DNA of 35,047 nt from Methanothrix sp. GTDB lineage: Archaea; Halobacteriota; Methanosarcinia; Methanotrichales; Methanotrichaceae. Within the stretch, counting starts at the first letter, position 1. Each line of letters begins with the position of its first letter. Shown here piece after piece: positions 18,823 to 34,797 of the stretch. The stretch is from the NCBI GenBank assembly GCA_026394555.1, contig JAPKXZ010000030.1, positions 1 through 35,047 of the forward strand. Direction: 5' to 3'. The notes under the pieces are model-generated. The model had not been told where the DNA came from, made no database searches, and saw nothing but the letters and a program-made list of their open reading frames with translations. The translations under genes were made by a program, and so were the position numbers.

Positions 18823-19884
18823 TTGAAGAGATTCTCTGTGCTACAAAGCAATTATCGCCTGGAAAGACGGGCCACCAAAGAATGCGCAGAGAAATATTAC
18901 CTGGTAAAAGATATTAAAGTAGGCAAGAAAAACGCCAAGGTCAGAAAGTATATTGGTAGCTTTGCCCCCTCGCCAGGAGAATTGAAAAGCCTGAGTGAAA
19001 GGCTGGCACTGGAGATCGAGACCCAGGCAGTGGAGAAGGCCTCTCGCCTGAGCCATGCCAGGTACTCCTCCAGATACCTTCGCAAAGATATGTCCGAGCG
19101 TCTGGAACTGTTGCGCTACACCTACAAGGTCTTTAATGAGATTTTAACCTCAGATGAAAAGAGAAAGTACGAAGAGGAATTCGAGATAAACTACGTGCAG
19201 GGCACAACAGCCATCGAAGGCAACACCCTAACTTTGGGAGACACCCGTGACCTTCTTTATGGCGGCCTCTTGCCCGTGAAAAAGAACCTGCGAGAGATCA
19301 ACGAGGTCCAGAACTTTCGAAGGGTTATAGACTACAGGAACAGATATCCTGGTAGGATAAGTCTTCGCTACATCAAAGACTTGCACGCCTTGATCATGAA
19401 CAACATCGACTACGAATCGGCCGGCACCTTCCGCCGCACCGATCTTATCGGCATAAGCGGCTGTGACCAGGCTCTCACGCCATCGTTTGAGATCGAGGAA
19501 GAGCTGGAAAAAATAACCAACTCTTATTATAATAATATGCAGGCCGGAGCCCACCCTTTTGAGGAGGCGGTGCTATTTCACTACTATTTCGAGATGATTC
19601 ATCCCTTCACTGATGGCAATGGACGGGTAGGCAGGGAACTGTTCAACTATCTGCTCATGAGAAGCAAGCCGCCTTACCCAAAACTGCTATTCTTGGGCAA
19701 GGACCGACCCGAGTATCTCCTGGCTCTTCGTCATGGCAACGAGGAGAGATATGCGGAAATGGCAGCAATCTTTGCCGAACTGATCATCAGGCAGAGGCAA
19801 AGAGTCCTGGAGGAGAACTTCAAGAGGATCATGGAATCTGGACCGAGAGGACAGATGAGACTGTCGGACTATGTCGAGGTTTAG
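18823..19884 (+). CDS. Fic family protein (probable AMP transferase) with N-terminal inhibitory motif
   Basis: A 353-residue Fic protein. The catalytic motif HPFTDGNGRVGR is at 260-271 with H260, complete and consistent with transfer of AMP or another nucleotide to protein hydroxyls. The self-inhibitory helix motif TTAIEG (128-133, glutamate 132) is upstream of the Fic core, which places it in the class whose inhibitor is N-terminal in the same chain. Residues 1-80 form a separate basic domain (KDIKVGKKNAKVRKYIG). TTG 18823 has AAAGGTAT upstream. The target is unknown; neighbours are toxin-antitoxin genes. Confidence 0.9.
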   Translation: MKRFSVLQSNYRLERRATKECAEKYYLVKDIKVGKKNAKVRKYIGSFAPSPGELKSLSERLALEIETQAVEKASRLSHARYSSRYLRKDMSERLELLRYTYKVFNEILTSDEKRKYEEEFEINYVQGTTAIEGNTLTLGDTRDLLYGGLLPVKKNLREINEVQNFRRVIDYRNRYPGRISLRYIKDLHALIMNNIDYESAGTFRRTDLIGISGCDQALTPSFEIEEELEKITNSYYNNMQAGAHPFEEAVLFHYYFEMIHPFTDGNGRVGRELFNYLLMRSKPPYPKLLFLGKDRPEYLLALRHGNEERYAEMAAIFAELIIRQRQRVLEENFKRIMESGPRGQMRLSDYVEV

Positions 19885-20982: not shown

Positions 20983-23900
20983 TCAATCGAATTGAGATAG
21001 CAAATCCTTGTCCGGTTCTTGCTCCGCCATTTGGCAGGCTTCGATGTAGTCTCGCCGCAAAGCATGGGCCAGGCCGCTGAAAGCTTGGGGCAGGTCCCTG
21101 TGGAAGGAGACCAGGTGCTGCAAACCCTCGGCGAAGGCACTGGCGGCTTCACAGTGGCACTCCAGGGCCAGCAGCACGTTGCCGTAGGCAACAAGGCTCA
21201 TCGCCAGGTCGGGTAGAAATGACTGCGCATTGGAAGCGGCCAGCTTGCGATAGACGTCTACAGCCTCCTGCGACGCTTGCAGCGCAGGCTCACGTTGCCC
21301 CAGATCGGAAAGCATGACGGCCAGGTTGTTGAGGCTCGCCGCCAGGTTGGGCAGGAATGCCTGCGCATTGGAAGCGGCCAGCTGGCGATAGACGTCTACA
21401 GCCTCCTGCGACGCTTGCAGCGCCTTCTCCCGTTGCCACAGATCAGAAAGCATGGCGCCCTGGTTGTTGAGGCTAGCCGCCAGGTCGGGCAGGAATGCCT
21501 GAGGATTGGCATTCGCCAGCTTGCGATAGACGTCTATAGCCTCCTGCGACGCTTGCAGCGCCTTCTCCCGTTGCCCAAGAGCGGAAAGCCTGAGCCCCAG
21601 GTTGTTGAGGCTAGCCGCCAGGTCGGGCAGGAATGCCTGCGCATTGGCATTCGCCAGCTTGCGACGGATGTTCACAGCCTCCTGCGTAGCTTGCAGCGCC
21701 TTCCCCCGTTGCCCCAGGGCGGAAAGCCTGTTGCCCAGGTTGTTGAGGCTCATCGCCAGGTCGGGCAGGAATGCCTGCGCATTGGCATTCGCCAGCTTGC
21801 GATAGACGTCTATAGCCTCCTGCGACGCTTGCAGTGCCTTCTCCCGTTGCCCCAGAGCGGAAAGCATGGCGCCCAGGTTGTTGAGGCTCATCGCCAGGTT
21901 GGGCAGGAAGGCCTGCGCATTGGAAACGGCCAACTTGCGAAGAAGGTTCACAGCCTCCTGCGACGCTTGCAGCGCCTTCTCCCGCCGCCCCAGGGCGGAA
22001 AGCGCTACTCCCAGGTTGTTTAGCAATCGTGCTCGCCCGGCTTTATCGTCAGCCGGAAGCACATGCAGTTTCGCTTCTAACACCTTTGCTGCCAGCTCTC
22101 TCAAAGTCAAAGTGCGCTCTGGCGAGGGCAGACGTGCATCAAGTTCCTCCAGGAAAAACCAGGCTTCCTGGTATGAGGCAGAGGAGCAGACTTCTAGGAG
22201 GGTATCCAGGTTGAAACGGGATGCCTCCAGCCTGGAGAGCGTCAGCTCCTTCCCGGCTGGCTGACGCTTTAGCCACTCGGTCCAGGGCGGAAGGAGTGCA
22301 ATCATCCGGGAGCGCCGCTCCTCCGGAGAGTGCGGCCAGCGGCTGCGAGCGTATTCGGCAACCGTGGCGTGCCAGTGCCATAGTTGTTCAGAAGGGTCAA
22401 AGTCGGCAAGAGCTGCCTCCCGCAATTTCTGCAGTCCTTCTTTCCCGGCTGCTGCTCGCAAAACGCTCTCTGGAGCGCATCCGGCAGGGAAGAGAAGCAG
22501 AGAGGCCCAGGCGGCCAGCCCAGCCCCGTCCAGACGGGCTGCGCTCCAGGAATAGACCGTCTCTATCAGGGATGCAAAATCGCCCTCCTTTTTGGCCACC
22601 ATCTCCAGCAGCTCGTCCAGGTCCCGTCGCCTGGCCTGAGCCACTAATTTCTCCACAAGCAGGGGATGTCCGTCCACAGCCCTGGCAATGAATAGGGCTC
22701 GCTCCCATGTCAGGGAGATCCTCCGCTGATTGGCCAGAGCTAGAGCATAGCGGGCCGCTTCCTCAACCAAGAGGCCGCGGTGCAGAGGCAAAGGCCTGGC
22801 GGAGGGCAGCTCCTCCAAAGCCTCGCAAGAGGGGCGCAGGGCGACAATGGCCGCGCTCTCCCCGCCCAATTGCCGCAGAAAATCCCGCAGGCGAGCCATT
22901 TCCTCCGTAGCAAGCGACTCCAGGTTGTCCAGGAGTAGTAGCGTTGGTTTTGCAGCAGTGTACAAAAGCAGGTCCTCTGTCCTTTCCAGCCCCAGGGCGC
23001 CGGCCAGGACGGTCAGCATCTCGGCTGCGGTCGTGGTACGGGCATCCTCAGGTCGTGGTCCCGCGGCATAGGCCACTCCGCCCGGAAACCGCCAGCTATT
23101 GCGTTGCGCCGCCTCCAGAACCAGGCTGCTCTTGCCTATGCCCGGCGGCCCGGAGAGCACAACCACCGCAGGTGGATGAGCCAGGTCACGGCTGATCTGC
23201 ACCAATTCCCGGCCACGCCCCAGGAAGAGGCCGCTTTGTAGGGGCAGGTTGCCACGCGGGCGGCGCTCATCCACTACCGGCTCCCCGCCGCTCAGGTTTT
23301 CAAAACGCAGTTCTTCATCGCCCAGGAGGATAACGTCATGGGTGGTGACCTCCTTTCTGGCGCGGGCCACTGCCTCCCCCAGAGTGAATCCGCCGGGCAG
23401 CTCGGCGTAGAGGCGAGCGGCAAAGGCCACCGCCTCGGCGTCCAGGACGGGACGCTCGTGGCCGACTACAGAGCGGGCCAGGCCGCCATCCAGCAGAGCT
23501 TGGGCCACGGATTGAGCGTCGGTGGCGCTCTCGCAGCCGTTGAGCACCACCAAATTTAGGGGATGGGGCAGCCCCTTCAGAGCATTCAGGATTTCGGCGG
23601 TGGTGGCGGCGTGCATCTGGCCCAGTTCATCCTCCAGAAGCAGCCCCTCCCGCCAGGCGTGGCCGCTGAAGTGCAGGACATGGGGAAAGGCACTTTGCTC
23701 CATTGCCCGTGGAGAGAGAGCGTAGCGCAGCGCATCCAACGTGGGCAAGGTGAGACGTGCCAGGAGAATGGGAGCGCCGCTCCGGCGCACCCCATCAGCC
23801 AGGACGTGCCACTCCTGTCGCAGGTCCAGAGGGCTTGGCGACACATCCGGAGAGCGAGGATTGTACACAGGGGCAGCCAGCAGGGCCAGCACACGCAGCA

Positions 23901-24054
23901 TGCGGACAGGGTCGCGCTTCGACAGGGCTGCCTGCTCTGCCGCCTGAAGCATCACCTTCTCCGCCTGGATGATGACGTTTTGCGAGCCGGTCACAAGCAA
24001 GCTGTCATCGGCCTTGCTGCCGATCTGAATGTCTTTGCGGGAGTCGTCGTTCAT
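20983..24054 (-). CDS. CHAT protease - STAND NTPase - TPR repeat protein
   Basis: A 1023-residue multidomain protein. An N-terminal segment (1-45) precedes a CHAT caspase-like protease with H132 in HFSGHAWREG and C174 in VVLNGCESA. Next is a STAND/NB-ARC-like NTPase with Walker A GPPGIGKSS (302-310), Walker B LLLLDN (372-377) and a DGHPLLVE motif (461-468). A helical linker is followed by six 46-residue TPR units (about 678-953) and a short TPR-like tail. STAND proteins with a protease at one end and repeats at the other act as ligand-triggered switches, often in antiviral or cell-death responses. That role here is inference; the ligand and protease target are unknown. Confidence 0.92.
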   Translation of the reverse strand: MNDDSRKDIQIGSKADDSLLVTGSQNVIIQAEKVMLQAAEQAALSKRDPVRMLRVLALLAAPVYNPRSPDVSPSPLDLRQEWHVLADGVRRSGAPILLARLTLPTLDALRYALSPRAMEQSAFPHVLHFSGHAWREGLLLEDELGQMHAATTAEILNALKGLPHPLNLVVLNGCESATDAQSVAQALLDGGLARSVVGHERPVLDAEAVAFAARLYAELPGGFTLGEAVARARKEVTTHDVILLGDEELRFENLSGGEPVVDERRPRGNLPLQSGLFLGRGRELVQISRDLAHPPAVVVLSGPPGIGKSSLVLEAAQRNSWRFPGGVAYAAGPRPEDARTTTAAEMLTVLAGALGLERTEDLLLYTAAKPTLLLLDNLESLATEEMARLRDFLRQLGGESAAIVALRPSCEALEELPSARPLPLHRGLLVEEAARYALALANQRRISLTWERALFIARAVDGHPLLVEKLVAQARRRDLDELLEMVAKKEGDFASLIETVYSWSAARLDGAGLAAWASLLLFPAGCAPESVLRAAAGKEGLQKLREAALADFDPSEQLWHWHATVAEYARSRWPHSPEERRSRMIALLPPWTEWLKRQPAGKELTLSRLEASRFNLDTLLEVCSSASYQEAWFFLEELDARLPSPERTLTLRELAAKVLEAKLHVLPADDKAGRARLLNNLGVALSALGRREKALQASQEAVNLLRKLAVSNAQAFLPNLAMSLNNLGAMLSALGQREKALQASQEAIDVYRKLANANAQAFLPDLAMSLNNLGNRLSALGQRGKALQATQEAVNIRRKLANANAQAFLPDLAASLNNLGLRLSALGQREKALQASQEAIDVYRKLANANPQAFLPDLAASLNNQGAMLSDLWQREKALQASQEAVDVYRQLAASNAQAFLPNLAASLNNLAVMLSDLGQREPALQASQEAVDVYRKLAASNAQSFLPDLAMSLVAYGNVLLALECHCEAASAFAEGLQHLVSFHRDLPQAFSGLAHALRRDYIEACQMAEQEPDKDLLSQFD
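21196..22023 (-). repeat. Six 138-bp tandem repeats encoding TPR units
   Basis: Six in-frame units of 138 bp (46 residues) encode LNNLG..LSALGQREKALQASQ-type TPR motifs. The marker AGGTTGTTGA-like sequence recurs at 21323, 21461 and every 138 bp to 22013. Units are highly alike at DNA level, differing mainly at a few residues (for example ANANAQ versus AASNAQ), which suggests recent expansion or gene conversion. Confidence 0.9.
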
Positions 24055-24345: not shown

Positions 24346-25536
24346 TCAGTAGGTGCTGAGCTCTCCCCTGAACAGCATCTGCTGCAGCTTGGGAATATTG
24401 GCCAGCCAGTCGTCCAAGATCTCCGTGGCCCCCGCTTCCAGGTTCTTCATATCCACGCCTTCTTTGGGCACAATCTGCACGCTGGCGATATGCGGCTCGT
24501 CGATAGGCTTGCCGATCTGCGAGAGCATTTTGATGTAGACCTCTTCAATGCCCTGCACCTCGGCAGCTATCTGCCGGGCCGCCTCCGTGGAGAGAAGGTT
24601 GTAGATCTTGCCCACGTGGTTGATGGGATTCTTGCCGCAGGTGGCTTCCAGGCTCATGGGCCGATTAGGTGTGATCATGCCGTTAGCCCGGTTGCCCCGG
24701 CCTACGGCTCCATCGTCTCCCATCTCCGCAGATGTGCCGGTGACAGTGATGTAGACCGAGCCCTGCTCGATGTTGTCGGCCACATTCATCTGGGCATTTA
24801 CTTTCCGCGCTGTGAACTCTTTGGCGTACTCAACAATGTGCTCCACAATGGCGCTCTTCGTGTCCACATACTCCTTGAGGTTGGCTACATGCTTATCGAC
24901 CATGGCACAGGCGATGGTCAGATTGATGACATCTCCCTGGCGCATGCCCATGACCTTGATATCTTCACCTATGGCCGGAACGCTCTTCTTGAGCCTCATC
25001 AATTCACGCTCGGTATTGAAGACGATGTTCTCCGTCTCGGAAAGAGGCGCATATCCCACGCCAAAAGATGTGTCGTTGGCGGAAGGGACCTTACGGCCGA
25101 AGACGTCCCGCAGATCGGATGAGCCCATGCCGATCTTGGCATCAAGGATGACGTGATTGTTGACGTCCAGGTTGGAGAGCGACTCGCTCAAGAGCTTTCT
25201 CCCGGCCTTGATGGCGATGGTGTCCACCGGAATCTCCACTTCCTTGAAGACCCGGGTGGCGCGGCCCGTGAGAAGAATGTAAAGAGGGCAGATGACCTCG
25301 CCGCCTCCAAAAGCGGGCTTGGACCGACCGGCTACGATCTGCGTCTTGTCGGTGTTGTGATGCAGCACCGCTCCAAATCTATCAAGGTATTCCTGGCAAA
25401 GGGCCCGGCTGATGGACTCAGCCAGGCCGTCCGCCACGCTGTCCGGGTGTCCAATGCCCTTGCGCTCTACCAACTCGATTTCTTGCTGCTCCAACGGTCT
25501 TTGATTGAGGCGTTCAACCTTGATATTTCTCTTCAT
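24346..25536 (-). CDS. mat: S-adenosylmethionine synthetase, archaeal type
   Basis: A 396-residue enzyme joining ATP and methionine into S-adenosylmethionine. It belongs to the archaeal family, distinct in sequence from bacterial MetK. Motifs are [17 protein letters not shown] (24-40), [24 protein letters not shown], and the C-terminal [21 protein letters not shown] chose ATG 25536 ([18 protein letters not shown]), preceded by GAGGACT, over the frame-open start at 25638. Length is normal. It follows the ABC permease by 77 nt on the same strand, so it may share the transporter transcript. Confidence 0.96.
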
Positions 25537-25613: not shown

Positions 25614-26405
25614 TTACTGCGTGAGTCCCACGCGCCACTTCAGCATCCGATCCTCCACTACATAGCGGAAGGTGCGATCGATGGCCAGGCCCAGCAGACC
25701 CAGCACAATCATGTACATGAATACCTCATCCATGCGGTAATGGCCGTAAGAGTCCCAGATCTTGAATCCTAGACCATTCTTGCTCACCCCGAACATCTCG
25801 GCGGCCACAAGACACATCCAGGCAATTCCCATGGCAATCCTTATGCCGGCAGCGATGGAAGGCAAAGCGTAAGGCAGAGCGATATATCTTATCAGATCGA
25901 AATCCTTAGTTGCACCCAAAACTTTTGCGGATTCGACATATACCCGGGGCAGGCTCTTAAAACCCAAATAGGTGTTGATCAAGATGGGAAAGACTGCCCC
26001 AATAAAGATAATAAAACCTGCGGCGATGTTGGTTATGCCAAACCAGATGATAGCAAATGGAATCCAGGCCAATGGTGGTATGGGACGCAAGATCTCGACA
26101 ATGGGATCCAAAATATTGTCAAAAAGCTTAAACCATCCCATGATCATTCCTACTGGCAAAGCAATTATTAGACCGCCCGCCATGCCGATGGCAAAATGAA
26201 GAGAGCTTACCGGCAGGTCCTCGGTGAGAATAGACCACCAGTTATCCAGAAAAGCGGCTATTACCTGGAAGAAACTGGGCAATGTCAATTGGTCGTTGAC
26301 CAGAAAGGCAGCAGTCTGCCAGATTGCTATCAATCCAAAAATAGAAAGGACGGAAATGCCCTGATTTCTCAGGACATTCAAGGTCCTACTGACTTTTCTC
26401 TGCAC
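25614..26405 (-). CDS. ABC transporter permease, sulfonate/taurine/nitrate (SsuC/TauC) type
   Basis: A 263-residue inner-membrane permease of the SsuC/TauC/NrtB group. It has six hydrophobic segments (for example ISVLSIFGLIAIWQTAAFL, AIGMAGGLIIALPVGMIMGW, AAGFIIFIGAVFPILINTYLG) and the ATPase-contact loop VESAKVLGATKDFDLIRYIALPYALP. It overlaps the 3' end of the binding-protein gene by 20 nt if GTG 26405 is used; TTG 26381 is an alternative. The ATP-hydrolysing subunit is not adjacent in this window, so it must be supplied from elsewhere. Confidence 0.92.
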   Translation of the reverse strand: MQRKVSRTLNVLRNQGISVLSIFGLIAIWQTAAFLVNDQLTLPSFFQVIAAFLDNWWSILTEDLPVSSLHFAIGMAGGLIIALPVGMIMGWFKLFDNILDPIVEILRPIPPLAWIPFAIIWFGITNIAAGFIIFIGAVFPILINTYLGFKSLPRVYVESAKVLGATKDFDLIRYIALPYALPSIAAGIRIAMGIAWMCLVAAEMFGVSKNGLGFKIWDSYGHYRMDEVFMYMIVLGLLGLAIDRTFRYVVEDRMLKWRVGLTQ

Positions 26406-27414
26406 CTAACACCTTCTCGTAGAGACTGGTATCAAATAGATCCTTCTCGGTCAGCAACCTCTTAGTATACTTCATCTCGTAGTCGACCTTTGCGTACTCG
26501 AGGGTCGAGGGCACCTGAACGCGCGGATCGCTGACCCACTTGCCATCCCAGTTCTTTACGGAATACTGTATTTCCGTGATGTTAGCTTTGGTCTTCTTGG
26601 CGTATATCTGTGCGGCCTCCTCGGGATTGGCATTGATGTAGTCGGTCGCTTTGATATGGGTCTTTATGATCTGCTCTACCAATTCCGGCTGCTCTTTGAT
26701 GAGCTTGTCCGTTACTACCAGGCTGCAGCAGGCGTGGTTCGGCCACATCTCACCCGAGGCTACTGCTTGTTTGCCCTTGCCTTTCAGCACAATTATTGCC
26801 GGCGCTGGATGCGGCAGGAAGACACCATCTATTTGGCCGGCAGACAGAGCACTCATGGCCGGTCCCGGGTCCATGGCTTTGATATCGACCTGTGAGACAT
26901 CCACCCCATTTTCCATAAGCCATTTTTTCATGACTGTGTCCTGAATAGATCCGGGCGGGAATGTACCTATAGTTAGGCCGGCTAGCGAAGCGGGTCCATT
27001 GTAGACCAGATCCGGTCTCAGGACCAAATCCGAGCCGTTGATATTGACGGCAGCCACGATCTTGGCGGGCAATCCCGCGGATATGGCAGAGATGGGCGGC
27101 GCGGTTCCCACATAAGCCATGTCCAGTTCTCCGGCGACCATAGCTTGCATCTCCGGAACTCCTGTGGGGAACTCAAACTCCTTGATATTGGTTATGCCGA
27201 AGGGCTTTAGATCTTCAGCCCACCAGCCCTTTTCAGAAGCGACCATCTCTGCGATCTGATGGGTACTGGGCTGGTACCCTATGCGCAGGGTAGAAATCTT
27301 GCCGGACATATTTTCTTTTGCGGAGACATTCTCCTTCTTCTCCGGAGCAGAGATGCAGCCCAGCGACATCACTACCACAGCCGCCAGAATGGCCATAATT
27401 ATGAATTTCTTCAA
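26386..27414 (-). CDS. ABC transporter substrate-binding lipoprotein (SsuA/TauA/NMT1-like)
   Basis: A 342-residue extracytoplasmic binding protein. The N-terminus is a lipoprotein signal (KKFIIMAILAAVVVMSLGC) with the lipidated Cys at 20. The mature part has the periplasmic-binding fold of the SsuA/TauA family: TLRIGYQPSTHQIAEMVASEKGWW, GVPEMQAMVAGELDMAYVGTAPPISA, AIIVLKGKGKQAVASGEMW. The start is TTG 27414 with a near-perfect ribosome-binding site AGGTGATC. Likely ligands are sulfonates; specificity is inferred from family and from the adjacent coenzyme M genes. Confidence 0.9.
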   Translation of the reverse strand: MKKFIIMAILAAVVVMSLGCISAPEKKENVSAKENMSGKISTLRIGYQPSTHQIAEMVASEKGWWAEDLKPFGITNIKEFEFPTGVPEMQAMVAGELDMAYVGTAPPISAISAGLPAKIVAAVNINGSDLVLRPDLVYNGPASLAGLTIGTFPPGSIQDTVMKKWLMENGVDVSQVDIKAMDPGPAMSALSAGQIDGVFLPHPAPAIIVLKGKGKQAVASGEMWPNHACCSLVVTDKLIKEQPELVEQIIKTHIKATDYINANPEEAAQIYAKKTKANITEIQYSVKNWDGKWVSDPRVQVPSTLEYAKVDYEMKYTKRLLTEKDLFDTSLYEKVLGAEKSQ

Positions 27415-27595
27415 ATGCGATCACCTGAGTTATCGACTTTGCCAGACCCCAGAGAAAGATCGGTATAAAGCTGTTTCCAGCCACAAGGCATTATCTTCAC
27501 AGAATGGATAATAAGCAGAGATAATCCCACAATAGTATTAATAGGAGCGGACCTCGGGCGAAAAGCGTTTCTAGAAATAGATCAATGTCAATCCA
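27415..27595. promoter_or_regulatory. Divergent promoter region between transporter and DUF39-ferredoxin gene
   Basis: A 181-nt gap separates two diverging units, so both promoters must lie here. The minus strand carries the SD AGGTGATC next to the binding-protein start. On the plus strand AATAGTATTAATAGG (about 27530-27544) is the best TATA-like stretch; the gene at 27596 has no clear SD. No repeat or operator stands out. Confidence 0.4.
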
Positions 27596-28879
27596 ATGGT
27601 TGGGTCTTATTCGGATATATTGAAAAAGGTTATGCAGGGCGTGGCTGTCGTTATCACGGCAGAGGAAGTAGCCGAGCTGGTAGAATCGGGCGAATCGTCC
27701 CGGCTCTCCGAGGTCGATGTTGTCACTACTGCCACCCGAGCCGTGATGAGCGGCACCTACGCCGTCCTCTCCTTTCCCGTGGCCAAGCCGGCATCGTTCC
27801 TTCGGGCCAGGAGAGTCTGGATTAACGGCATAGCCGCACAGGTCGGGCCCTGTCCCAACGAGAACCTGGGCGTATTGGATTTGATCGTCCTGGGAACGGC
27901 CCACAGCCAGGATCGGCAAAATTACGGGGGAGGCCACCTCTTTCGCGATCTGGTGGAGAGAAAGAAAGTTCACGTCGATGTGGAGACGGATGATGGACGC
28001 CGCCTGCAGGCCGAAATCGGACTGGATGAGATGCCCTATGCCCGGCTCTTTGCATCACGTCACGCCTTCAAGAACTACTCAGCCTTCGTTAATGCGGGAG
28101 CGGAGCCGGTTGGCACCATCTTTCACTCCCGCGGCTTTGCGCCGCATTGCCGGGAGGCGACATTCTCCGGCTGCGGCCAGATAAACCCTCTAAAAAATGA
28201 TCCTCTTTTGGAGAGCATCGGCATGGGAACCCGCATTCTCATGAACGGAGCCGAGGGCTTCGTTATGGGCACTGGTACTCGCAGCAGCAAAGAGCGGCCC
28301 AATCTGTCCGGCTTTGCCGATATGCATAAAATGGTGCCGGAGTTGATGGGCGGCTTTGTCACCTCTGCCGGTCCGGAATGCATCTGCTCCTGGGCCGTTC
28401 CCATACCCGTTATCAGCAAGACGATTCTGGAGGAGATTGCCCGACCGGACAGAGACATTGCTCTGCCTGTGAACGATGTTTGCAGCAGGACGGTCATCGG
28501 CCAGGCCGACTACGGTGATGTCTGGACGGATGTGGATCTGGAAGTAGAGTTTGAACCAGAGAACTGCTCGGGCTGCAACCCTTGCCTGGTGGAAGAAGCA
28601 TGCCCCATGAGGGCGGTAAAGAGCGAAGGGGGCAAAATCTGCCGGGATGAGGCTTTGTGTTTTCATTGCGGCCTGTGCACCAGCGTGTGCCCCTCGGCGG
28701 TCTTCTCCTGTCGCCTGGGGGCCATCCGGCTGGAGAGGGATGGGGCAGTCGTTCGAAGCATCCCAGTGGTGCTGCGTCAATCGGACCGGCTGCGGGCAGA
28801 AAGGCTGGCGGAGGATCTGAAGAGCAGGATCATAAATGGTTCATTCCGAATGGCGGAGCCGGTCGAGCGCATCTCATGA
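27596..28879 (+). CDS. DUF39 sulfurtransferase fused to a C-terminal 2[4Fe-4S] ferredoxin domain
   Basis: A 427-residue fusion. Residues ~1-315 are a DUF39 domain, the family that includes the methanogen enzyme converting aspartate semialdehyde to homocysteine with sulfide. Recognised stretches are VVTTATRAVMSGTY, YGGGHLFRDLV, HAFKNYSAFVNAGAEPVGTI, SGCGQINPLKNDP and IGMGTRILMNGAEGFV. Cysteines in this part are C86, C185, C193, C262, C264 and C296. Residues ~316-427 carry two clusters, C324-C327-C330-C336 (last spacing five instead of three) and C355-C358-C361-C365. In other methanogens I recall the ferredoxin as a separate gene. The 3' end runs 50 nt into comE on the other strand. The close partner genes suggest a role in coenzyme M synthesis rather than homocysteine. 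Confidence 0.88.
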   Translation: MVGSYSDILKKVMQGVAVVITAEEVAELVESGESSRLSEVDVVTTATRAVMSGTYAVLSFPVAKPASFLRARRVWINGIAAQVGPCPNENLGVLDLIVLGTAHSQDRQNYGGGHLFRDLVERKKVHVDVETDDGRRLQAEIGLDEMPYARLFASRHAFKNYSAFVNAGAEPVGTIFHSRGFAPHCREATFSGCGQINPLKNDPLLESIGMGTRILMNGAEGFVMGTGTRSSKERPNLSGFADMHKMVPELMGGFVTSAGPECICSWAVPIPVISKTILEEIARPDRDIALPVNDVCSRTVIGQADYGDVWTDVDLEVEFEPENCSGCNPCLVEEACPMRAVKSEGGKICRDEALCFHCGLCTSVCPSAVFSCRLGAIRLERDGAVVRSIPVVLRQSDRLRAERLAEDLKSRIINGSFRMAEPVERIS

Positions 28880-29405
28880 AACGCTCGATAATCTCTTTTG
28901 GAGAGAGGCTGATGATGGGCACATTGGCATTGCCAGCATCTACGTTTACGATTACTACTCCTGGGCCCAAGAGTGCTTCAGCCAAGTCCTCGGCCCGCTC
29001 GACCAGGCTCACCTTCTTGACCCCGGCCGCTTTCGCCAGGGCGAAAAGGTCCGTGCCTAGATGAGTGCAGGTGGGCTGCGAACCGGTGGAGCCGTAGCAA
29101 CAGTTGTCCAGGATCACCAGCAGATAATTCTCGGGCGCATAATGGGCAATGGTGGCCAGCGTCCCCAGATTCATGAGCACCGAGCCGTCTCCGTCCAGGA
29201 CCATTACCTTTCTCTCGGGAAGCGCTAGGGCCAGGCCCAGGCCAATGGAGGAAGCGAGACCCATGGAGCCAAGCATGTAGAAGTTTTCCGGGCGATCTTT
29301 AACCGAGAAAAGCTCCCGGCTGGGAAAGCCGATGTTGCTGACCAGCAACGCATCCTGGGCCGCTGCCGCCTCTGCGGCCAGGGCAATGGCCTCAATGCGC
29401 TTCAT
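28830..29405 (-). CDS. comE: Sulfopyruvate decarboxylase, beta subunit (ComE)
   Basis: A 191-residue thiamine-diphosphate-binding subunit. It has the GDGS motif at 72-75 (LDGDGSVLMNLGTLATIAHY) and the distal NCCYGSTGSQPT, where N101 completes the cofactor/magnesium site, plus the segment FYMLGSMGLASSIGLGLALALP. With ComD it decarboxylates sulfopyruvate to sulfoacetaldehyde, the step before thiol addition in coenzyme M synthesis. ATG 29405 overlaps the comD stop (ATGA) and has GGAGG upstream. The 3' 50 nt overlap the convergent DUF39 gene. Confidence 0.93.
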   Translation of the reverse strand: MKRIEAIALAAEAAAAQDALLVSNIGFPSRELFSVKDRPENFYMLGSMGLASSIGLGLALALPERKVMVLDGDGSVLMNLGTLATIAHYAPENYLLVILDNCCYGSTGSQPTCTHLGTDLFALAKAAGVKKVSLVERAEDLAEALLGPGVVIVNVDAGNANVPIISLSPKEIIERFMRCARPAPPFGMNHL

Positions 29406-29899
29406 CTTCCCCTCCAAAACTCTAAATCCAGCAGCACAGCCACGGGGCAGCAGCCCGCCGCCGCCTGGCTCCAGGCCTGTGCCACCGTCTCCTCCGCCTC
29501 TGCCGGGCTGGGCTCAAAATGAGGAATGGCCATGGCTTCGAGCAGGGGCACGGTGAGCCGGCCCATGGGCACCTGACCGATAACCGGCTCGCCCATGCCG
29601 CCCCGGTGGCTGATGATCATGAGCAGAGGAATGCCGTAGAGCAAATCCAGCGACGCCAGGGCGTTGATGCTGTTTCCCAGGCCAGAGTTTTGCATTAGCA
29701 GCGCGGGCCTGTGGCCCCCTATCCAGGCCCCGGCGCACAGGCCCACCCCCTCCTCCTCGCGGGTGACGGGCACGTGGATGATCTCCGGGTCGTCGCTAAC
29801 CAGAGCGAGCAGCTCTTGCAGATTGACGCAGGGCACCGAGGTCGCGAAGTTGATGCCGGCACGCAACATGCCTTGATAGACGGCGAGGCTGGGATTCAT
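29402..29899 (-). CDS. comD: Sulfopyruvate decarboxylase, alpha subunit (ComD)
   Basis: A 165-residue subunit supplying the pyrimidine-binding half of the thiamine-dependent decarboxylase. Features are FATSVPCVNLQELL, VPVTREEEGVGLCAGAWIGG with the glutamates (48-50) expected to activate the cofactor, and ALLMQNSGLGNSINALASL, with YGIPLLMIISHRGGMGEP. ComD and ComE are separate chains here; in some methanogens they are fused. AAGGGAAG precedes ATG 29899. The pair forms a two-gene unit with a 4-nt overlap. Confidence 0.93.
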   Translation of the reverse strand: MNPSLAVYQGMLRAGINFATSVPCVNLQELLALVSDDPEIIHVPVTREEEGVGLCAGAWIGGHRPALLMQNSGLGNSINALASLDLLYGIPLLMIISHRGGMGEPVIGQVPMGRLTVPLLEAMAIPHFEPSPAEAEETVAQAWSQAAAGCCPVAVLLDLEFWRGR

Positions 29900-31399: not shown

Positions 31400-31526
31400 T
31401 TTTTTTATGATAATATGAGGACGTCCTTTAGCTTTAACCCCAAAATTGGGGAAAAGCCAACGGATCTAAATTTTTCATTGCTGAGATGAATATCATTATT
31501 TACTATTGGCTGCCAATAAGAGCTAC

Positions 31527-32270
31527 ATGAGCCTGAAGGTCACAATGCTAGGAACGGGCGTGGGAGTCCCCCAGCCCGGTCGCTCCCAGGCGGCGGTATT
31601 AGTGGAGAACGATCAGACTCTGCTCCTGGACTGCGGGGCGGGCACTCTCCTGCGTCTGGACGAGGTGGGAGTCGATCTGGAGGCGCTGGACACGGTGGTG
31701 CTCACGCACCTTCATTTGGACCACGTCTCCGATCTGCTGGCCCTGGCCAATGCCCGTTATCTAGCAGATATGCCCGGCCTGCAAATCTTCGGGCCGCAGG
31801 GCACAGAGGTCTATTTTAGGATCGCCAAGAGCGTCTACCCCAACCTGGAGAAGATGAGTGTGGCGGTGCAGGAGCTTAAACCCATGGATTCTTTCACCCT
31901 GAAGGGTTTTGACATCTTTGCCGAGGAGGCGCGCCACAGCGTGACGGCTCTCGCCTACCGCCTGGAGGCAGAGGAAAAGGTAGTGGTCTACTCCGGAGAC
32001 ACTGAGCCCTGCCCGCGTGTGGCTGCTCTGGCGAAGGAGGCTGACCTGCTCATTCACGAGTGCTCATTTCCTGAGCCCTTTGATGTCACCAACCACACCA
32101 CGCCCAAAAAACTGGGCAGCATGATCAAGAACCTGGGCGTTAAGCGCGTGGTGCTCACTCACCTCTACCCACAGGCACAGGGATGCGAGGACGAGATGGC
32201 TGAACAGGTGATTGAGCTGTCCGGAGCGCCGACCATTGTGGGCTGGGATATGATGAGCGTGGTGGTTTGA
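31527..32270 (+). CDS. Metallo-beta-lactamase-fold hydrolase (RNase Z/ElaC-like)
   Basis: A 247-residue MBL-fold enzyme. It has the zinc motif THLHLDH (H61, H63, D65, H66), an acidic ligand in YSGDTEP, and a late histidine in VVLTHLYP. The overall layout (MSLKVTMLGTGVGVPQPGRS start, LLDCGAGTLLRLDE, SGDT) is that of the RNase Z/arylsulfatase-type branch. The missing long arm of true RNase Z and its modest length leave the substrate open. ATG 31527 is preferred to TTG 31506. A decayed paralogue, sharing 54 identical nt, lies at 34519-34797. Confidence 0.85.
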   Translation: MSLKVTMLGTGVGVPQPGRSQAAVLVENDQTLLLDCGAGTLLRLDEVGVDLEALDTVVLTHLHLDHVSDLLALANARYLADMPGLQIFGPQGTEVYFRIAKSVYPNLEKMSVAVQELKPMDSFTLKGFDIFAEEARHSVTALAYRLEAEEKVVVYSGDTEPCPRVAALAKEADLLIHECSFPEPFDVTNHTTPKKLGSMIKNLGVKRVVLTHLYPQAQGCEDEMAEQVIELSGAPTIVGWDMMSVVV

Positions 32271-34518: not shown

Positions 34519-34797
34519 TAGCTGAAGAAAATGTGGTGGTCTACTCCGGAGAAATCGAAACCCTGCCCACGCGCGGGCGCTCTGGCAAAGGTGGCCTACC
34601 TGCTCATTCACGAGTGCTCATTTCCTGAGCCCTTTGATGTCACCAACCACAGAGCTTCCTGCAATCTGATGGAGCAACTCTTGGCCCGGAGGCTAACGGA
34701 TGGGTTTCTGCTCCTGCACCAGCGAGGCAAGAAGGATTTAGACGATATGGGCAAAGATATATTACCAGCGATCAAATCGCATGGGAGACAAGCTTAA
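34519..34797 (+). pseudogene. Decayed MBL-fold hydrolase fragment
   Basis: The segment is related to the middle and end of the MBL hydrolase at 31527-32270. The opening AEENVVVYSGE matches AEEKVVVYSGD in one frame, then a one-base insertion near 34552-34570 shifts the rest. After this, LLIHECSFPEPFDVTNH is identical, and 34598-34651 equals 32044-32097 base for base. The remainder (SCNLMEQLLARR to HGRQA) only loosely fits an MBL C-terminus. The zinc motif HxHxDH and the whole N-terminal half are missing. It cannot make a working enzyme. Confidence 0.8.

Follow-up and report, generated by a model that had tools for sequence, protein, structure and literature searches.

Coenzyme M (CoM) is the methyl carrier in all methanogenesis. 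The locus described here raises two questions: whether a DUF39 protein with its own ferredoxin, encoded opposite comDE in a Methanothrix genome, forms the thiol of this cofactor, and whether the sulfonate-type transporter genes on its other side serve CoM uptake. The window, i.e. the whole stretch of 35,047 nucleotides analysed, is contig C69 of a 2.53-Mb genome (G000, completeness 96%), and the named records most similar to it belong to Methanothrix sp., with isolate GL140_5 in first place (92% identity in the DUF39 protein). We interpret the locus as one of CoM synthesis and uptake, with a probability of about 0.93 for the part formed by ComF and ComDE.

The comF-comDE locus and its distribution

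Translations of the ORFs gave the chromosome order metK (-), ssuC (-), ssuA (-), comF (+), comE (-) and comD (-) (Table 1). comF and comE are convergent with a tail-to-tail overlap of 50 nt (28830-28879), comD and comE overlap by 16 nt at the start of comE, ssuA and ssuC overlap by 20 nt, and the divergent ssuA and comF are separated by 181 nt. Since this gene order is kept in many named Methanothrix genomes and the E-values of ComD, ComE and the DUF39 protein range from 1e-59 to 1e-159, the locus is not a chance reading. The metK gene is also found downstream of ssuC at other loci (L039, L043, L048, L087, L090, L092, L093 and others), and the CoM claim is independent of it.

Table 1. Features of the CoM locus in the window
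Feature	Position	Strand	Evidence
comF / MMP16, DUF39 (COG1900d, HcyBio) sulfurtransferase with inserted 2x[4Fe-4S] ferredoxin; proposed coenzyme M synthase	27596..28879	+	TIGR03287, PF01837, tree, invariant Cys
comE, sulfopyruvate decarboxylase beta subunit, ThDP-binding GDGS...N	28830..29417	-	TIGR03846 and motif
comD, sulfopyruvate decarboxylase alpha subunit, REEE	29402..29899	-	TIGR03845 and motif
ssuA-type sulfonate substrate-binding lipoprotein	26386..27414	-	TIGR01728; ortholog of ssuA in Methanosarcinaceae ssuACB operons
ssuC-type permease	25614..26405	-	PF00528; identity to ssuC of ssuACB operons
ssuA/comF divergent intergenic region, two conserved blocks	27415..27595	.	14 aligned Methanothrix-type intergenic regions
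Archaeal S-adenosylmethionine synthetase (metK)	24346..25533	-	NF003364, 628.1 bits

Both subunits of sulfopyruvate decarboxylase scored above the curated cut-offs (ComE, 237.9 bits against TIGR03846, cut-off 221.5; ComD, 199.5 bits against TIGR03845, cut-off 147.95). The two motifs by which the first-pass annotation had recognised comDE are also present in the translations, the thiamine motif in ComE as VLDGDGSVLMNLGTLATIAHYAPENYLLVILDN and REEE in ComD as VTREEEGVGL, and the pair shows no notable difference from known ComDE. In M. acetivorans, ComDE is encoded by one gene, whereas the window has two separate genes. As the genome also contains a cysteate synthase (567.8 bits; 31976-33148 on C31, a contig other than that of comDE), sulfopyruvate would be made by the cysteate-synthase route of Methanosarcinales and then decarboxylated by ComDE to sulfoacetaldehyde.

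The DUF39 protein matched TIGR03287, "methanogenesis marker 16 metalloprotein" (MMP16), over model positions 1-391 of 391 with 529.6 bits (cut-off 363.95); this is a hypoth_equivalog model, and the function of MMP16 comes from the literature and not from the model. PF01837 (HcyBio) covers residues 17-419 (350 bits, cut-off 26.2). These matches and the ORF positions bear out the earlier description of a DUF39 protein that carries a ferredoxin and is convergent with comDE; the ferredoxin is located at residues of about 316-372, within the DUF39 domain and not as a C-terminal fusion. The AlphaFold model of ComF is confident (pLDDT 92.4, pTM 0.91). With Foldseek, no solved structure related to the DUF39 fold was found at E <= 0.001, the better-probability matches covering the ferredoxin part only, and a sequence search for related solved structures likewise returned ferredoxin matches only. 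MMP16/ComF proteins of Methanosarcina acetivorans (MA3299) and Methanocaldococcus jannaschii (MJ1681) have the same domain plan of DUF39 plus inserted ferredoxin, and the window protein is, like them, above the cut-off, encoded beside comDE and conserved at C86 and C193.

The distribution of MMP16 was examined at two levels. In the own order of the organism (50 genomes of one family), the cut-off is exceeded by MMP16 in 45 genomes, by ComE in 42 and by cysteate synthase in 47. Over the phylum (247 genomes, counted from genome lists typed from two search tables), 105 genomes have both MMP16 and ComE, seven have MMP16 only, 27 have ComE only and 108 have neither. MMP16 is therefore not equally common in organisms without comDE: ComE is present in 105 of the 112 genomes with MMP16 (odds ratio 60; Fisher p = 1.7e-34, a value that is too small because the genomes are related). 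Several of the 27 genomes without MMP16, among 132 bearing ComE, are incomplete or have a low-scoring ComE. Of the 92 genomes in which both genes could be located, 69 have ComE no more than 6 kb from MMP16, and 31 of these 69 pairs are convergent. Some Methanothrix genomes have a second, unlinked MMP16, an example of this type being encoded at 397830-399017 on contig C1 of G016, and two genomes (G001 and G047) have the second type only and retain comDE.

These observations are in line with published work. According to the account of White (2019) given in PMC12068725, the protein was proposed as ComF, and E. coli carrying MJ1681 can convert sulfoacetaldehyde to CoM. When CoM is withheld, an M. 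acetivorans strain deleted for MMP16 grows more slowly, and in the absence of sulfide it is a CoM auxotroph (Chadwick et al. 2025, PMC12068725); the transcriptional response of the mutant is that of CoM-starved cells, with induction of ssuA, ssuC, cs and comDE, and MMP16 co-occurs and clusters with sulfoacetaldehyde genes over many orders (PMC12068725). MMP16 is not strictly essential, since published M. maripaludis mutants that lack it need no added CoM for growth and sulfide sustains growth of the M. acetivorans mutant (PMC12068725). The proposal of the first-pass annotation that the fusion is the thiol-forming enzyme of CoM synthesis agrees with the tree described below, with co-occurrence and with the published ortholog genetics; it is very probably right and had already been published in 2019 and 2025. 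The window enzyme is thus a member of a known, recently characterised family whose role in vivo is published for orthologs and from which we infer its own activity, and the transporter rearrangement and residue conservation reported here are modest additions to that knowledge.

The transporter genes beside comF

SsuA scored 168.5 bits against TIGR01728 (cut-off 163.5) and has a TTG start and a lipobox-like LGC. The permease matched BPD_transp_1 (PF00528) with 88.3 bits, while its matches to SaoP, NtrB, TauC and SsuC were below cut-off; it is the sole family call without an equivalog above cut-off among the genes of the locus. The best NCBIfam names (SaoX, SaoP and SaoA) pointed to a "Sao" system, which was rejected because all of these matches were below cut-off. 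The earlier description of a sulfonate/taurine-type permease and a lipoprotein diverging from the fusion holds, except that the permease lies mostly outside the span then assigned to the locus, with its far end at 25614. Alignment of 14 Methanothrix-type intergenic regions between ssuA and comF revealed a BRE/TATA-like block on the minus strand, putatively serving ssuA, GGAAACTG(N)TTTATA, and a second block on the plus side towards comF, ACAATAGT. The two blocks resemble separate, putative promoters, and a shared operator was rejected on this resemblance.

No ATPase gene was found in the window or beside ssuAC at eight other loci (L039, L043, L048-L051, L167 and L169), and the reading of the locus as a complete ABC transporter was rejected on the absence of an ATPase from the window and from the surroundings of these relocated ssuAC pairs. 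The best NitT/TauT-type ATPase of the genome is an orphan candidate at 58862-59545 on contig C24 (254.7 bits against TIGR01184; next best 149). An intact ssuA-ssuC-ssuB operon is present in nine genomes outside the family (L213-L221), eight of which belong to the Methanosarcinaceae-like family f2. Identity to the operon proteins is 50-59% for SsuA, 54-58% for SsuC and 59-64% for the orphan ATPase compared with SsuB. At the Methanosarcinaceae loci inspected, no SsuA was found within the flanks (up to 7 kb) of MMP16. SsuA and SsuC of the window are orthologous to the Methanosarcinaceae operon pair. The window locus lacks the ATPase gene, and ssuAC appears to have moved next to comF in the Methanothrix lineage, with ssuB left behind. 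Within the genus of the organism, ssuA and comF are divergent neighbours in 17 of the 22 genomes, most of the remainder ending at contig edges, and the same arrangement occurs in genera g3, g4, g5 and g7. As ssuAC is not beside comF in two other genera of the same family (0/7 in g8 and 0/6 in g9), the link between transporter and comF is lineage-specific; compared with the MA3299 and MJ1681 systems, ssuAC adjoins comF only in Methanothrix and near genera.

In general, binding proteins of the SsuA/TauA type accept many sulfonates, and ssuAC could accordingly be a chance neighbour unrelated to CoM that imports another sulfonate such as taurine, isethionate or sulfolactate. The absence of the neighbourhood from g8 and g9 would fit such a role, as would the fact that metK, which has no role in CoM metabolism, is likewise close and often conserved. 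We nevertheless consider it unlikely. A single SsuA and a single SsuC of this type are encoded in the genome of the window, the adjacency recurs in the genus and in four further genera, and SsuA is orthologous to the one close match that each Methanosarcina-type genome searched contains. Moreover, ssuA and ssuC of M. acetivorans, the former presumably the same ortholog, have been described as a transporter specific for CoM and are induced when cells are starved of it (PMC12068725), and according to a review ssuABC is present for CoM in almost all methanogens (PMC10658910). CoM is therefore probably the ligand of ssuAC by analogy with these systems. The first-pass suggestion that the transporter may bring in CoM is plausible and gains support from the ssuACB orthology; the divergent ssuAC, together with an ATPase encoded elsewhere, would take up CoM or another sulfonate very similar to it.

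Relatives and alternative roles of the DUF39 protein

Methanothrix MMP16 might also be a broader thiol former, acting for example in coenzyme B synthesis as well, in which case adjacency to comDE would reflect only one of its substrates. Double deletion of MMP16 and the homocysteine-forming aspartate-semialdehyde sulfurtransferase (L-ASST) in M. acetivorans was unobtainable even with CoM, for which the authors considered a possible role in coenzyme B synthesis (PMC12068725), and the second, unlinked MMP16 would suit such a role. However, CoM alone repairs the published single mutant, and the retention of comDE in the two genomes that have the second type only fits a second type acting as ComF, so that we regard a broader role as quite improbable. 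We would give long odds to a further idea, that the CoM economy of Methanothrix and neighbouring genera was rebuilt around comF, with ssuAC taken out of ssuACB, the ATPase orphaned and the second, unlinked MMP16 clade of some of these genomes making another thiol, e.g. a coenzyme B precursor; if so, the genes for CoM import and for the final synthetic step would face each other.

The position of the window protein as an MMP16 was examined with a tree of 67 rows (55 MMP16 and 12 L-ASST), built on the DUF39 part that they have in common. The split between MMP16 and L-ASST received 100% SH-aLRT, each group having a stem of 1.4 changes per site, and the window protein groups among comDE-linked Methanothrix MMP16 proteins, outside the homocysteine-forming clade. 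A second DUF39 protein of the same genome (contig C66, 507 aa) has CBS-type domains and matches the MMP16 model only partially (149 bits, positions 1-289), and a 128-aa ferredoxin protein is encoded directly after it; since CBS-type domains and a separate ferredoxin fit the plan described for the homocysteine enzyme, this pair is assigned as L-ASST. Searches of the window DUF39 protein with curated family and Pfam profiles gave no CBS match. L-ASST (COG1900a; MA1821-MA1822) shares with ComF the DUF39 domain and an analogous aldehyde-to-thiol chemistry, and differs from the window protein in its CBS domains, its separate NIL-ferredoxin subunit, its other conserved cysteines and an identity of about 31%. 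That the window protein is itself an L-ASST lying beside comDE by chance is thus rejected as extremely unlikely on tree and architecture (no CBS domains, an inserted ferredoxin, 100% placement on the MMP16 side and a complete L-ASST pair elsewhere in the genome), even though both belong to PF01837 and L-ASST may partly substitute for MMP16 in M. acetivorans.

Conserved cysteines and a proposed mechanism

With the window protein taken as ComF, the published model would have sulfur from sulfide or a persulfide replace the aldehyde oxygen of sulfoacetaldehyde to give 2-mercaptoethanesulfonate, and the inserted 2x[4Fe-4S] ferredoxin would deliver the required two or four electrons. The ferredoxin cysteines (C324, 327, 330, 336, 355, 358, 361 and 365) are present in all 114 MMP16 sequences, barring gaps in one shortened sequence. 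C86 is a cysteine in 114 of 114 distinct sequences; this count is biased for loci found with a pattern containing GPCPNE, and the unbiased loci from HMM searches agree with it. A constant offset of 9, derived from motif spacing, relates C86, S191 and C193 of the window protein to M. acetivorans Cys95, Cys200 and Cys202, respectively. The Cys200 position, Ser191 in the window protein, is mostly serine among the 114 sequences, and three of them have serine at the Cys202 position (L081, L082 and Methanolobus profundi L134, the last with comDE close by). These natural serines agree with the published finding that both Cys200 and Cys202 are dispensable in M. acetivorans mutants (PMC12068725). Cys95 is not among the mutated residues named in the main text and figure legends of that paper. 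This pattern of conservation favours Cys86 (Cys95 in M. acetivorans) as the candidate for a thiol with a catalytic or cluster-related role.

Thiol installation had been the last open step of the archaeal CoM pathway; it is now answered at the level of the gene (MMP16 = ComF) and not at that of mechanism. The Methanothrix locus provides a compact comparative case for ComF, and the comparison singles out the invariant Cys86 as the next residue of interest. In addition, ssuAC and the orphan ATPase constitute a testable, putative CoM importer in a dominant acetate-using methanogen.

MMP16 proteins outside the comDE linkage

A second clade of MMP16, the DUF39-ferredoxin family to which ComF belongs, is not linked to comDE and comprises loci L038, L040, L042, L052 and L054 (genomes G016, G005, G039, G001 and G047). 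It was recovered with 96% support, and its members share 62-76% identity with each other, compared to 55-58% with the comDE-linked type. In G001 and G047, this clade provides the sole MMP16 type, and their comDE-ssuAC locus has no comF between ssuA and comE. One genome of the phylum sample (G268, 99% complete) has MMP16 above the cut-off and no ComE above background, and is an exception to MMP16-ComE co-occurrence. In L134 (Methanolobus profundi), L081 and L082, the DUF39 domain naturally has Ser at the position of its core Cys (Cys202, M. acetivorans numbering).

Gene overlap, duplication and decay

Lying on opposite strands, comF and comE share 50 nt at their 3' ends; the two genes likewise overlap end to end at several loci of Methanothrix, Methanococcoides and Methanohalophilus, among them L088, L115 and L146. 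Elsewhere in the window, an 88-aa ORF, 81% identical to part of a metallo-beta-lactamase protein, is a putative partial duplication of that gene.

Features of the window and of compared loci
Feature	Sequence	Position	Strand
Fic/DOC family protein, ~1 kb from next entry	window	18823-19884	+
CHAT-AAA-TPR protein, near-identical repeats	window	20983-24054	-
comF/comE overlap	window	28830-28879	
Metallo-beta-lactamase gene	window	31506-32270	
88-aa ORF	window	34531-34797	
Fragmented SsuA gene adjoining comDE (G047)	L053	5087-5901	
Decayed ComE remnants after MMP16 (genus g11)	L055; L057	4378-4593; 6371-6590	
Full-length ComE (genus g11)	L056	84-1133	

Apparent relocations and a probably misbinned block

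The entire Methanothrix-type block metK-ssuC-ssuA-comF-comE-comD was also found in Candidatus Methanosuratincola MAG-2 (L100, contig JACIVP010000022.1), with 64-97% identity. It is probably a misbinned Methanothrix contig; otherwise, the block would represent a transfer. An intact SsuA copy of G047 lies on a separate contig, C122. In genus g11, full-length ComE adjoins cysteate synthase on a separate contig, and comDE has apparently been relocated or replaced.
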